NCBI GenBank assembly: GCA_903845115.1
Contig: CAIMWE010000034.1
Span: 1-39,691 of the forward strand
Direction of reading: 5' to 3'
Source: an uncultured Acidobacteriota bacterium
GTDB taxonomy: Bacteria > Acidobacteriota > Thermoanaerobaculia > UBA5066
Length of the DNA: 39,691 bases
In this document: in pieces, positions 16,776-31,164 of the stretch
Layout: each line of letters opens with the position of its first letter
Position numbering within the stretch: position 1 is the stretch's first letter
Position numbers and translations under genes: made by a program
The notes under the pieces: model-generated
Database searches by the model: none
What the model was told of the DNA's origin: nothing
The model's input: the letters and a program-made list of their open reading frames with translations, nothing else

Positions 16776-17870
16776 TCAGATCGAGACGAGCCCGGCGCCC
16801 CAGTGAAGGCCGGCCCCCAGCGCGGTGAAGCAGACGAGGTCGCCGCGCTGGAATTTCCCGAGGCGCGACGCCTCGTCGAAGACGATCGGGAGGGTGCCGG
16901 CGGTGGTGTTGCCGTACTTCTGGATGTTGTTGAACACCCGCTCGTCGGGGAGATCGAGAGCCTTCTGGACCGCCTCGTTGATCCGGAGATTGGCCTGGTG
17001 CATGAGGAGGAGCTTCACGTCGTCGAGCGTCCGCCCGTGGCGGCCGAGCACCTCCCGGACGGCTGCGGGCATCAGCTGGACGGCCAGCCGGAACACCTGG
17101 CGCCCTTCCACGATGGGGATGGTCGCCAGGCTCTCGAACATCGCCGGAGTGAAATAGGGCCGCGACTTGCAGCCGCCGCCGGGGATGTGCAGCTTGTCCC
17201 AGTGGGTCCCGTCCGTGTACATGACGAACCCGAGGAATCCCCGCCCGTCTCCGCTGTCGTTCGCCTCCAGGACCATCGCTCCCGCGCCGTCGCCGAAGAG
17301 GACGGCCCGGTCGCGCATCCCCGACGCCGTCGCGCGCCAGAACGGGTCGCACGGGCCCTCGGCCTCTCCTTTCACGACGTCCCAGACCGATTCGGGCCAC
17401 GGCATGAGGCCGCTGTGGCACTCGGCCCCGACGAGGAGGACCCGGTCGTACATCCCCGATCGGATGAACGCGTCCGCCGTCTGCATCCCGGAGAGAAACC
17501 CGGCGCACTGCATCCGGATGTCGAGGGCGTGCGTCGAGGGCTTCATCCCGAGCGCCGCCGTGAGAAGGCCTCCGTTGCCCGGGAAATAGTAGTCCGGGGT
17601 CATCGTCGCGAAGATGACGAGGTCGATGTCCGACGGCGAGAGGTTCGCGCTCGCGAGGGCCGCGCGGGCGGCCTCCACGCCGAGCTGGGCCGACCCGGTT
17701 CCGGCCTCGGCGAAGCGGCGCTCCTGGATTCCGGTCCGCTGGACCACCCACTCGTCGGTCGTGTCCATCAGCCGGGACAGCATCTCGTTCGTGTAAACGC
17801 GGGGCGGGACGTACATCCCCGAGCTCCGGATGACGGTCGTGCGTGCGGAGAGAGGCCGGACGGTGCTCAC
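16776..17870 (-). CDS. fabH: 3-oxoacyl-ACP synthase III-like (FabH)
   Basis: A thiolase-fold condensing enzyme that would start fatty-acid synthesis from acyl-CoA and malonyl-ACP. The 364-residue protein has Cys122 in RMQCAGF, His291 in MHQANLRI and Asn321 in KYGNTTAG, a full Cys-His-Asn triad. It is about 45 residues longer than E. coli FabH, mainly from an inserted stretch around residues 155-187 (PWPESVWDVVKGEAEGPCD and following) near the dimer and substrate region. Relatives in OleA-like or specialised branches also vary here, so a non-standard primer is possible. The start is GTG at 17870, exactly 6 nt after TAGACT. It lies 56 bp downstream of the kinase gene. Confidence 0.88.
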   Translation of the reverse strand: MSTVRPLSARTTVIRSSGMYVPPRVYTNEMLSRLMDTTDEWVVQRTGIQERRFAEAGTGSAQLGVEAARAALASANLSPSDIDLVIFATMTPDYYFPGNGGLLTAALGMKPSTHALDIRMQCAGFLSGMQTADAFIRSGMYDRVLLVGAECHSGLMPWPESVWDVVKGEAEGPCDPFWRATASGMRDRAVLFGDGAGAMVLEANDSGDGRGFLGFVMYTDGTHWDKLHIPGGGCKSRPYFTPAMFESLATIPIVEGRQVFRLAVQLMPAAVREVLGRHGRTLDDVKLLLMHQANLRINEAVQKALDLPDERVFNNIQKYGNTTAGTLPIVFDEASRLGKFQRGDLVCFTALGAGLHWGAGLVSI

Positions 17871-27068: not shown

Positions 27069-28043
27069 TCAGGGCTTGACGCCGGCGGGAGGCTGCGGGT
27101 CGGGACCGCTCTTCAGGATTCCGTCATTCCCCATTCGGCGATAGATGGCGAGGCCGTTGGTGGTGTCGGCCTTGGGAGAGCAGTACTCCCCGACCTTCTC
27201 GACCGTGGAGAGCTTAGAGGAGAGGCGGACCTCGGGGAATCCGTTCTGTCTCGTCTCCTTCGCGATCCGGAAGACGCGCTCCAGGTAGGCCCTGGTCGCC
27301 GCGAGCTCGGCGTCGGCCGCCGTCGAGGTGTCCCCGAGGCTTCCCACGAGGACGGACGGCTTCTTGTTCCCGATCCGCTGGAGCTCGGCCATCCAGGCCG
27401 GTGGATCGCAAGACGCGTCGACCATCGACGGGCAGCGTCCCGTCACGGCGAGGTCGCCGACGAACGCAGCCCTGGCTTCCGACGCGAAGACCCAGAGGTC
27501 GGCCCCGGTCGAGGCCGGACCCTTCGACGCAAACACCTCGACGGACTGGCCTCCGTCCGAGATGACCGCGCTCTGCTTCACGCCGACCACCTTCGGGGCG
27601 TTCCCGCCGGCCGCCATCCGGGTCACCACGGCCTCCATGTTGGCGGCAAGGGAAGCGTGGACGTAGAGGGCGGTCGCCGCCGGGACGAAGGAGGGTAGGC
27701 CGGTGTTGGCGTGAGAGTGCAGGTGGGTCAAGACGACCCACTTGACCGGCTTGCCGCCGGTGGACGTCTTGATCTCCGCCTGCAGGTTCGCCGCATCCTG
27801 CTTGGAGGCGCCGGTGTCGATCACGAGAACCCCTCCGCCGATCTCGACCCAGCCGCAGTTGGAGGTCCCGAACCGACCGACCCACGTCCGGGGGCCCAGC
27901 TTCGCGACCTCGAAGGGCGGGACCGCCGGCGCCTTGGGGGCGGGCGTCTGGTCCGCGAGACCCGCCAGGGGAAGGACCGCCAGGAAAGCGCCCGCAACGA
28001 GGGAGTGGAGACGAACGGAGAGGACCGCGCTGATTCGTCGCAT
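27069..28043 (-). CDS. exported metallo-beta-lactamase-fold protein with altered metal motif
   Basis: A 324-residue protein with an N-terminal signal peptide (LVAGAFLAVLPLAGLADQ). The fold is shown by GWVEIGGGVLVIDTGASKQDAANL, KWVVLTHLHSHANTGLPSF and FVGDLAVTG. The family's HxHxDH metal motif reads His107-Leu-His109-Ser-His111-Ala112, so the Asp is His and the last His is Ala. Zinc binding may be altered or lost, or the shifted His111 may serve. It therefore may not be a standard hydrolase. A TAGAAT box sits 7 nt before the ATG, opposite the ketosynthase promoter. An open frame continues upstream across the ketosynthase gene and is a shadow. Confidence 0.82.
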   Translation of the reverse strand: MRRISAVLSVRLHSLVAGAFLAVLPLAGLADQTPAPKAPAVPPFEVAKLGPRTWVGRFGTSNCGWVEIGGGVLVIDTGASKQDAANLQAEIKTSTGGKPVKWVVLTHLHSHANTGLPSFVPAATALYVHASLAANMEAVVTRMAAGGNAPKVVGVKQSAVISDGGQSVEVFASKGPASTGADLWVFASEARAAFVGDLAVTGRCPSMVDASCDPPAWMAELQRIGNKKPSVLVGSLGDTSTAADAELAATRAYLERVFRIAKETRQNGFPEVRLSSKLSTVEKVGEYCSPKADTTNGLAIYRRMGNDGILKSGPDPQPPAGVKP

Positions 28044-28077: not shown

Positions 28078-29289
28078 ATGGGGGAGAGAGCCCGAGGGCC
28101 GAGCCGGACGGCCGCCGTCACCTCGCTGGGCGTCGTGACCGCCTTCGGCGCGGGGGTCGAGGCCTTCTGGAAGGGAGTCCTGGGGGGCCGGAGCGCGATC
28201 GCCCCCGTGACCCGCTTTCCCGTCTCTCCGTATCGATCCGGTGTGGCGGCGGAGATTCCAGCCGGGGATCTCGCCCCGGAATCGGACAGGCTCGCGACCC
28301 CGTCGACCTCGGCGATGCGGCTGGCGTTCGCGGCCGCCCGGAAGACGGTGGAGCGGGAGCGCCTTCCGGTCGCTCCGGAGCGGTTCGGGCTGGTCGTCGG
28401 CACGACCATGGGCGGGAACGGCGAGTTCATCGACTGGGTCCGGAGCGGCACGGCCCCGTCCACCCGGCGGTCGGATGCCACTCTCTTCTCCGTCGCCTCC
28501 GCCCTCGCGGCGGAAATCGGCGCGCGCGGCCCCGTTCTCACCGTGTCGGCGGCCTGCGCCTCGGGGACCCTCGCGGTCGGCATCGGAGCCGACCTGATCC
28601 GGCGGGGAGAGTGCGATGCGGTCCTCGCGGGGGGCTTCGACGTCCTCTCGGAGTTCGTCTTCGCGGGCTTCGACTCCCTGCGAGCGCTCTCTTCTTCGGC
28701 GTCCCGGCCGTTCGACCGGCGCCGCGACGGGTTGACCCTGGGCGAGGGCGCCGCCTTTCTCCTCCTCGAGGAACGCGCGGGCGTCGAGGAGCGGGGGCGG
28801 GCCCCTCTCGCCATCGTACGGGGCTACGGGTCGGCGGCCGATGCGCACCACATGACCCGGCCCTCGCCCTCGGGGGAAGGGCTCGCCAGGGCCGTCAGCT
28901 CGGCGCTCGCCGACGCGTCGATCGGGCCCGAGGAGATCGGGTTCGTCAGCACGCACGGGACGGGCACGGTCTTCAACGACCGGATGGAGGCCTGTGCGTT
29001 CCGCTCCCTGTTCGGCGAACGAGCGGCCCGCCTGCCGGCGAACTCGATCAAGGGTGCCGTCGGCCACACGCTCGGAGCCGCGGGAGCCATCGAGGCGCTC
29101 CTGTGCGCTCTCGTCCTGGAGAGGGGCGTGATCCCCCCCACGGCGGGTCTCGAGGAGCCGGACCCCCTGTGCCCCCTCGACGTGGTGGGCGGCTCCCCGC
29201 GGCCGCTCCCGGATTCGGTCCGGTACGTGCTGTCCACGTCCTCCGCGTTCGCCGGGACGAACGCGGCCCTCGTCCTCGAGCGGCCATGA
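28078..29289 (+). CDS. beta-ketoacyl-ACP synthase (KAS II/FabF-like, KS-alpha)
   Basis: A 403-residue condensing enzyme that elongates acyl-ACP with malonyl-ACP units. The catalytic set is Cys160 in VSAACASG, His293 in STHGTGT and His330 in KGAVGHTLGAAGA, all intact, with RPFDRRRDGLTLGEGA as in FabF. It resembles both FabF and the KS-alpha of type II polyketide or aryl-polyene systems. The stop overlaps the start of the next gene (ATGA), which encodes a second, degenerate ketosynthase. That pairing favours a KS/chain-length-factor heterodimer over a housekeeping FabF. No acyl carrier protein or dehydratase gene is adjacent. Confidence 0.88.
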   Translation: MGERARGPSRTAAVTSLGVVTAFGAGVEAFWKGVLGGRSAIAPVTRFPVSPYRSGVAAEIPAGDLAPESDRLATPSTSAMRLAFAAARKTVERERLPVAPERFGLVVGTTMGGNGEFIDWVRSGTAPSTRRSDATLFSVASALAAEIGARGPVLTVSAACASGTLAVGIGADLIRRGECDAVLAGGFDVLSEFVFAGFDSLRALSSSASRPFDRRRDGLTLGEGAAFLLLEERAGVEERGRAPLAIVRGYGSAADAHHMTRPSPSGEGLARAVSSALADASIGPEEIGFVSTHGTGTVFNDRMEACAFRSLFGERAARLPANSIKGAVGHTLGAAGAIEALLCALVLERGVIPPTAGLEEPDPLCPLDVVGGSPRPLPDSVRYVLSTSSAFAGTNAALVLERP

Positions 29290-30236
29290 CGACCGCTCGC
29301 GAAGTCCGTGTCGCCGGAACGGGTCTCTGGCTCTCGGGCCGCGAAGGGGGCGAGCCGGCTCGCCCGCGGCTGCCGGTCGACGTCTCCCGTCTCCGCCGGA
29401 TGGACCGCTTTGCGCGCGCGGGGTTCTTCGCCGGCAGCCTGTCGCTCGTGGAAGCCGGAATCGACCCTCGCCGTCCGCCCGACCCGACCCTCGGCGTGGT
29501 GTTCGGAACGGCTCACGGGTGCCGCGACAGCCTGATCGACTTCACGCTGGAGCTGGGGTCGTCGGAGTCGGTCGAGCAGCTGAGCCCTGCGCTCTTCGCC
29601 GAGACGGTGCACAACACCGTGAACGGCGAGCTCGCCATCGCCTGGGGCCTGGGCGGACCCTCGGAGACGATCGCGTCGGGCCGGACGGGCGGAGCCGACG
29701 CGATCCTCCGAGGCGCAGAGCTCGTGCGGACGGGCCGCGCGGCCGCCGTCGTCGCGGGGGGAGCCGAGGGGATCCACCCGAAGGCGGTGGAATGGTGGGA
29801 GCAGGAGCGTCCCTCCGGTGGGAGAGGCAGTTCCTCGGCCGCACCCAGGGACGCGGGAGCGGCGCTCGTCCTGGCGGATGCCGGGGAGGAGGCCGGGGCC
29901 GGCGACGTTCTCCTCTCTTCCGCGACGTGGTTCTTCGAGCCGGACCCGTCCGAGGCGGCGCGAAGGGCGGCCTCCTGGATCGGCGAGGGGCTCGACCGCT
30001 GGAAGCGCCCGCTCCTCCTGGACGCCACGGCGGACCTGGGCGGCCTCCCCTCGGCCTGGGAGTGCCGGAGCGTCGCGGCAGAGTTCGGGGAGCTCTACGG
30101 CGCCGCCGGTGCGGTCGCGGCGGTCCTCGCGGTCGAGGAGATCCGGAGCGGACGAACCGGAAGCGCGGTGGTCGTGAGCCGCGACCCGGGCGGACCGGTC
30201 ACCCTCCTGGCTTTCGTCACTCCCAGAACGGGGTGA
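29286..30236 (+). CDS. ketosynthase-like protein lacking catalytic residues (chain-length-factor-like)
   Basis: A 316-residue thiolase-fold homologue, about 85 residues shorter than its partner. Aligned by eye to the upstream gene, TVSAACASG becomes TIASGRTGG, so the Cys is replaced by Arg133. The first His motif is lost (LLLDATADLGG), and GHTLGAAGA becomes GELYGAAGA near residues 268-276, losing the second His. The structural phrases LGVVFGTAHG, AAAVVAGGAEG and AGAALVLAD remain. This matches the idea of a KS-beta that shapes the product of a KS-alpha/KS-beta dimer, although the usual active-site Gln is absent. Translation is coupled to the upstream gene. The 3' end overlaps the converging acyltransferase by 20 bp. 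Confidence 0.8.
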   Translation: MTTAREVRVAGTGLWLSGREGGEPARPRLPVDVSRLRRMDRFARAGFFAGSLSLVEAGIDPRRPPDPTLGVVFGTAHGCRDSLIDFTLELGSSESVEQLSPALFAETVHNTVNGELAIAWGLGGPSETIASGRTGGADAILRGAELVRTGRAAAVVAGGAEGIHPKAVEWWEQERPSGGRGSSSAAPRDAGAALVLADAGEEAGAGDVLLSSATWFFEPDPSEAARRAASWIGEGLDRWKRPLLLDATADLGGLPSAWECRSVAAEFGELYGAAGAVAAVLAVEEIRSGRTGSAVVVSRDPGGPVTLLAFVTPRTG

Positions 30237-31164
30237 ACTGGTACCACTGCGCGGGATGGGCGCGGATCGTCTCCTCGAGAAGGGCGACGAACGCCTTCAT
30301 CGAGACGGCGATCGCCTCGTTCCTCGCCCCCCGGCCGCAGTCGTCCACGGGAATCGGAGGCTTCACGATCGTCCTGTAGCGGCCGTCAGGGTCGACCAGG
30401 ACGAAGACGGGGAGCAGCGGAGCCCCGGACGCCGCCGCCAGCCGGAACGGCCCGACGGGGAACGAGGCGGTCTCGCCGAAAAACGGGAGCCGCATCCCTG
30501 TCCCCGAGACGTCCCGGTCTCCCTGCATCGCGACCAGCGCGTTCCCCTCGAGGGCCCTCAGGACGGAGATGAACGAGAGCGAGGAAGACGTGACCGGAAT
30601 CCCCTCCACGCCGACGGCCCTGCGGGCCTCGATCCGGTGCCTCTCGACGACCGGGGAGGGGTCGGGGCGGTAGACGGCCGAAACGCGGAAGCCGAACTTC
30701 CTGAGCAGGAAGCCCCCGAGCTCGAAGTTCCCGACGTGGGCCGTCAGGAGGATCCCGCCCCGCCCGGCGTCGCGGGTCTCGTGGAGGAGATGGGTCCCCT
30801 CCTGAAAGGAGATCAGGGCGCCCGGGTCGATCTCGCCGGGGCCCGCGTACCTCAGGAAGTCGATCCAGAGGCGGGAATGGTTCCCGAGCATCGCGAGACC
30901 TGTCTCTTCCACCGTGACGGAAGAGGGCGGGAGCGCCAGGACTCTCGACAGGTTCCCCTGGATCGCCTCGCGGACGCGCGACCGGCCCCACATCGCCCGC
31001 TCCACCGTGGCCGCCGAGAGCCGGCCGAGCCATTCGGGGGGGACCGTCCGGGCCAGGTGCCGGAAGACCGGGAACCAGATGGGGAACAGGTGGTGAGCCA
31101 GCGACGAGACGACCCTGGGCTCCGCGGCGGGAGGGGGTTGTGCCGGAGGGGCAAGTCCGTTCAT
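30217..31164 (-). CDS. LpxL/HtrB-like lysophospholipid or lipid A acyltransferase
   Basis: A 315-residue acyltransferase of the lipid A biosynthesis acyltransferase family. The catalytic motif H-x4-E is His143-Val-Gly-Asn-Phe-Glu148 in LLTAHVGNFELGG. Next come AVYRPDPSP and the substrate loop MQGDRDVSGTGMRLPFFGE with FPVGPFRLAAASGAPLLPVF, as in LpxL and in the PlsC-like acyltransferases of aryl-polyene clusters. No strong N-terminal membrane helix is seen, but the segment HLFPIWFPVFRHL is amphipathic. It converges on the ketosynthase pair, which leaves open whether it serves lipid A or the ketosynthase product. The upstream ATG region lacks a recognisable ribosome site. Confidence 0.87.
   Translation of the reverse strand: MNGLAPPAQPPPAAEPRVVSSLAHHLFPIWFPVFRHLARTVPPEWLGRLSAATVERAMWGRSRVREAIQGNLSRVLALPPSSVTVEETGLAMLGNHSRLWIDFLRYAGPGEIDPGALISFQEGTHLLHETRDAGRGGILLTAHVGNFELGGFLLRKFGFRVSAVYRPDPSPVVERHRIEARRAVGVEGIPVTSSSLSFISVLRALEGNALVAMQGDRDVSGTGMRLPFFGETASFPVGPFRLAAASGAPLLPVFVLVDPDGRYRTIVKPPIPVDDCGRGARNEAIAVSMKAFVALLEETIRAHPAQWYQFTPFWE

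Follow-up and report, generated by a model that had tools for sequence, protein, structure and literature searches.

A probable orphan ketosynthase–chain-length factor heterodimer with a reduced CLF in an uncultured member of the Acidobacteriota

Background

In the aryl polyene system, the silent partner of the ketosynthase (KS), ApeC, is about half size, most of its second thiolase half having been lost (PMC8358021). In cispentacin biosynthesis, the KS AmcF works with AmcG, a "cyclization factor" that lacks some of the secondary structures of a chain-length factor (CLF) (PMC10698177). KS-CLF pairs from outside the actinobacteria, Acidobacteria included, have been catalogued earlier (PMC10132072).

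Here we describe a KS gene followed by a reduced CLF-like gene in the genome of an uncultured Acidobacteriota bacterium (G000; assembly of 5.85 Mb, 96% complete). The window, by which we mean the whole stretch of DNA analysed, is contig C34 (39,691 nucleotides). An earlier note, made from the letters of the DNA, had proposed a minimal, possibly new kind of KS/CLF pair. We find that the two genes are indeed coupled, co-occurring and of the KS/CLF type; given ApeC and AmcG as precedents, however, they are no new kind but a pared-down version of an enzyme pair already known.

The gene pair and its conserved residues

The locus contains the following features:

27069..28043, minus strand: metallo-beta-lactamase-fold (MBL) hydrolase, divergent neighbour, kept across the family whether or not the pair is present
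28078..29289, plus strand: P0001, ketosynthase (KS-alpha), 403 aa, with PF00109 and PF02801 both above cut-off
28555-28557, 28954-28956 and 29065-29067: codons of Cys160, His293 and His330 of P0001, from alignment on the KS motifs
29286..29289, plus strand: ATGA overlap of the P0001 stop and the P0002 start
29286..30236, plus strand: P0002, reduced chain-length-factor-like protein, 316 aa, from domain matches, alignment, dN/dS and a model
29682-29684 and 30090-30092: codons of P0002 for Arg133 (in place of the Cys) and Glu269 (in place of the second His), from the alignment
30217..31164, minus strand: LpxL-type (PF03279) acyltransferase, convergent neighbour, no functional partner by phyletic evidence

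An active KS gene is thus followed, without a gap, by a coupled gene for a catalytically silent KS-like protein, an arrangement that recurs in the orthologues, and translational coupling through the ATGA overlap is likely. Aligning both proteins with some 50 further KSs and CLFs, we observed that Cys160, His293 and His330 of P0001 make up an intact KS triad, and that the segment carrying the first His is deleted from P0002. The alignment agrees with the earlier note on the residues of both proteins: the complete triad in the first and, in the second, Arg133 for Cys, no first His motif and Glu for the second His. It is also right that the usual CLF Gln is absent from P0002; the position is Arg in six genomes and Pro in two. 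Glu269 is likewise not retained in every orthologue, and the VHN, RRMDR and SGxTxG motifs are conserved.

Gln does not occur at the Cys position in any non-aromatic CLF of the alignment. The position is Arg in E. coli ApeC, and the second His is replaced by Glu in the C64, f8 and Streptomyces fused CLFs. As read from this alignment, a lost triad without Gln is the rule for non-aromatic CLFs and no sign of a new kind. We considered the missing Gln, Glu-for-His and Arg-for-Cys as traits unique to P0002 and rejected this, other CLFs in the alignment carrying them. The unusual trait of P0002 is its size, which the earlier note had already called short for a CLF: its orthologues have 270-318 aa, their C-terminal half being shortened and variable, versus 406-412 aa in the f14 CLFs. 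The Pfam matches of P0002 are PF00109 at 55.9 bits and, weakly and not as its best domain, PF13723 at 30.1 bits (cut-off 25), with nothing else; among seven family members, PF00109 is matched in all seven and PF13723 in five (E up to 0.1).

Distribution and selection

In 13 of the 14 genomes of the GTDB family the two genes are either both present or both absent, so that the co-occurrence search proposed in the earlier note revealed strict co-occurrence; in the fourteenth genome (G012) a fragment of the second gene lies at a contig end. Besides G000, the orthologues lie side by side in G001 (where the second gene is split across two contigs), G002, G004, G006, G007 and G010, and in G008 they lie at the ends of two contigs. 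Both genes are absent from G003, G005, G009, G011 and G013. Every family genome with the KS orthologue also has the P0002 orthologue. A search of the genome contigs found the G007 locus and no other.

Our profile searches beyond the family scored the best candidates of each genome and could pass over weak homologues. In 149 genomes of the class nothing matched at 1e-20 or better; in 396 genomes of the phylum one protein did, a KS::CLF fusion in G156. There (L059:7788-10258, contig C74) an ACP gene is immediately followed by a KS and a short CLF fused in one open frame, and plasmids of Streptomyces and Priestia megaterium carry similar fusions.

Comparing G000 with G001, two species of one genus, we obtained a dN/dS of 0.24 for the KS; the second protein, available in two parts, gave 0.26 and 0.17, and GatB and LpxL gave 0.17 each. 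P0002, with purifying values close to those of GatB and LpxL, is therefore held by selection. In a tree of neighbouring housekeeping genes, the pair-lacking g5 genomes group with the pair-bearing G004, and the pair-lacking G003 with the pair-bearing G007 and g2. The simplest reading of these groupings is that the pair would have been ancestral in the family and lost two or more times.

Relationships of the two proteins

P0001 scores 306.3 bits against the FabF equivalog model, below its cut-off of 493.75, and a separate FAS cluster FabF is encoded on contig C222; we rejected the assignment of P0001 as the FabF of FAS. The window also holds an extra KAS III (FabH-like) gene at 16776-17816, distinct from the FAS FabH on C222. 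In the KS tree, the P0001 clade is sister to KSs of f12 and f14 genomes of the same class (96/98 support), and the f14 sequences sit in ACP-KS-CLF-ligase-FAD-enzyme clusters. The Streptomyces NBC_01340 KS, which was the sister of P0001 in a first tree, lost this place once more class members were added. We infer, as the simplest history, that the pair descended from a cluster of the ACP-KS-CLF type, the acyl carrier protein (ACP) and tailoring genes being lost and the CLF shrinking. The CLF tree does not decide for or against this descent, and the sister groups differ between the KS and CLF trees.

A profile built from six P0002 orthologues scored best with CLF domains (G156 fusion, 76.9 bits; an f13 CLF, 70.8; a Streptomyces fused CLF, 70.3). 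The C64 CLFs gave 43-67 bits, the f8 CLFs 38-52 bits, an aromatic KS 50.6 bits and its own KS partner 10.4 bits. The orthologues form a fully supported clade of their own on a long branch. An origin of P0002 as a duplicate of its own KS was rejected (p-AU 0.016); grouping with KSs in general (p-AU 0.33) and with the f14 CLFs (p-AU 0.135) were not. From the profile scores and trees, P0002 is CLF-like and old, outside firm placement in any described CLF clade. The earlier note had held that firm grouping with a known CLF family would speak against a new pair; P0002 shows no such grouping.

The model of the P0002 monomer (four sequences) is of low confidence (mean pLDDT 61, pTM 0.69), and the alignment behind it contained KS rows that may bias it to the KS fold. 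It has a KS/thiolase fold with a shortened second half, the C-terminal strands still being there, and superposes on FabF and CLF structures, e.g. AntE, with Z of about 20-22. The structural matches were mostly FabF, together with the CLF AntE; the absence of ApeC among them is uninformative.

Genomic neighbourhood

The pair is usually flanked by the LpxL-type gene on one side and, on the other, by the MBL hydrolase gene, joined in other genera by a C26-peptidase/enoyl-CoA-hydratase gene; genes for QueF, LepB, GatB and FtsEX lie around it. The 3' end of the P0002 gene overlaps the convergent LpxL-type gene. In G003, G005, G009 and G011 the gene order is retained, the C26 gene follows LpxL directly, and the pair alone is absent. 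In the C26 protein (L042:11103-12608), a peptidase C26 domain (glutamine amidotransferase-like) is joined to an enoyl-CoA hydratase domain; its gene adjoins the pair in other genera and is absent from G000 and G001. As the earlier note had remarked, no gene for an ACP, a ketoreductase (KR) or a dehydratase (DH) lies in the immediate neighbourhood of P0001 and P0002 in G000, and no ACP gene was seen at the orthologous loci of the family either.

A proposed orphan KS-CLF heterodimer

We hypothesize that P0001 and P0002 probably constitute an orphan KS-CLF heterodimer in which the CLF is reduced and the ACP comes from elsewhere; the heterodimer, the role in the pocket and the trans-acting carrier are proposed by analogy. 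P0001 would condense malonyl- and acyl-ACP decarboxylatively through C160-H293-H330. P0002 would stand, as a catalytically silent and size-reduced CLF, in place of the second KS subunit, completing the dimer interface and the acyl pocket of P0001, and its Arg-Arg patch (R37-R38) may dock the ACP. As neither an ACP nor a reductase or dehydratase belongs to the pair, its elongation of acyl chains would take place on an ACP from another locus of the genome. The Arg-Arg patch is retained in nearly all CLFs compared (one Arg is replaced in G007) and is missing or weakened in the KS clade of P0001, which suggests that docking is on the CLF side; the same Arg pair in ApeC has been proposed to dock the ACP (PMC8358021). 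Since there is no ACP gene at the locus, the carrier would have to be encoded elsewhere. The earlier note had advised looking for such an ACP, and several free-standing ones are encoded in G000; among the family genomes, none is clearly co-inherited with the pair. A more far-reaching version, which we consider possible but would not expect, is that the pair belongs to a KS-partner lineage apart from all described CLF and cyclization-factor clades, a "free-agent" heterodimer with no ACP or tailoring genes of its own that borrows a carrier for one or a few elongations towards a family-specific compound.

Alternative readings and candidate partners

P0002 could instead be a cyclization factor like AmcG, the pair performing a single C2 elongation followed by ring closure or another special step rather than setting chain length. 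AmcF-AmcG is itself a KS with a non-canonical partner that carries out one elongation and a cyclization, P0001 scores 257 bits with the AmcF model (cut-off 325), which ranks it with the better matches of that model, and an orphan pair without KR and DH suits few rounds of elongation. However, P0002 is recognisably KS/CLF-like by its PF00109 match, whereas AmcG has no known functional motifs, and no adenylating AmcH-like, AmcB or AmcE gene adjoins the pair, which leaves this reading unlikely. The shortened and variable C-terminal half and the change between Arg and Pro at position 133 would fit a decaying KS relic, with P0001 acting alone as a homodimeric FabF-like enzyme. The dN/dS of 0.17-0.26 for the pair genes, the presence of P0002 wherever the KS is found, its conserved motifs and its separate origin from its own KS all speak against a relic, and we hold it to be very unlikely.

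A different question is whether the pair serves another enzyme. In the earlier note it was thought to work with the LpxL-type acyltransferase, to which it would supply an acyl chain; the two adjoin in G000, G004 and G006 and are near each other in the g2 genomes. The LpxL gene, however, is convergent to the pair and is present in 13 of the 14 family genomes irrespective of it: the five pair-lacking genomes all have LpxL (the junction is clean in the four that were read), and the one genome from which LpxL is missing, G007, bears the pair. The hypothesis is therefore unsupported, and we regard it as highly improbable. A weak lead, doubtful in our estimate, is that the pair makes an acyl group for a module on contig C171. 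This module has an ACP of its own, together with a KAS III-like acyltransferase, two SGNH proteins and an MBOAT, which would place the acyl group on a surface polymer. Such a module is found in G000, G001, G004, G006 and G007, all of which bear the pair; none of the five pair-lacking genomes has its KAS III, and the module is missing from both lineages that lost the pair. On the other hand, it is missing from the pair-bearing g2 genomes, and the counts are small (5/9 versus 0/5) and come from genomes that are not independent. In G000 (C171:12950-19490; L067:7951-14488) the ACP and KAS III-like genes are convergent with the SGNH-MBOAT-SGNH genes, and by eye the KAS III-like protein has Ser where FabH has Cys. 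This KAS III is absent in g2, G003 and g5.

Other modules of G000 were also noted. A MAT-KR-ACP-hotdog DH set without a KS lies on contig C22 (L068:5700-9619), unlinked to a bare KS/CLF pair on C64 (L060:10813-13133); in families f8 and f12 their homologues occur together (ACP, DH, KS, CLF, glycosyltransferase). The C22 set appears to be one half of a class-wide cluster that has been split, with the C64 pair as its KS/CLF. We rejected the C22 genes as dedicated partners of P0001 and P0002: the DH is found throughout the 14 family genomes, whether they carry the pair or not, and therefore gives no co-occurrence signal. On contig C113 (L061:5596-11614) a KS, an ACP, a second KS-like protein without the triad (W/A/F), an LpxL-type acyltransferase and a KR are encoded together, the LpxL gene here lying truly within a KS/CLF-like cluster. 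G000 is a PKS-rich Acidobacteriota genome, with more than 30 strong KS domains, mostly in very long frames (contigs C18, C30, C119, C141, C174, C255 and others).

The interest of the locus lies in its orphan state, its reduced CLF and what appear to be two clean losses. A KS-CLF pair stripped of its gene cluster would help to test what the silent subunit does, be it as dimer partner, pocket wall or docking site for the carrier. We also stress that cluster-based searches easily miss such pairs, which thus mark a blind spot of genome mining.

Comparison with known systems

ApeO-ApeC is likewise a KS with a silent partner of reduced size (PMC8358021). E. coli ApeC (240 aa) has the Arg at the Cys position, the VHN motif and the Arg-Arg patch in common with P0002, but it is far more divergent, matches PF13723 strongly (225 bits versus 30 for P0002) and is encoded in a complete cluster that also provides KR, DH and ACPs. 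In AmcF-AmcG, too, the KS has a partner that is non-canonical and reduced (PMC10698177); set against P0002 by its description, AmcG has no recognisable functional motifs and is encoded beside dedicated ACP and adenylating enzyme genes, whereas P0002 is recognisably CLF-like and its locus has no amcB- or amcH-type neighbours.

Closest on the KS side are the f12/f14 clusters of the same class, whose KSs are the sisters of P0001; they differ in their full-length CLFs and in the ACP and tailoring genes adjoining them. The CLF domains of the KS::CLF fusions are among the best matches of the P0002 profile, and that of G156 is also short, at about 321 aa. The fusions, however, are single genes in clusters with an ACP and, on the plasmids, also a malonyl transferase, KR and DH. 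The aromatic KS-CLFs of the actinorhodin type appear, as judged from the model, to share the overall fold and the pairing with P0001 and P0002; their CLFs have Gln at the Cys position and about 410-420 aa, against Arg or Pro and 316 aa in P0002. Together, CLFs of about 412, 318, 270 and 240 aa form a natural size series in which shrinkage is tolerated while the gene is kept.
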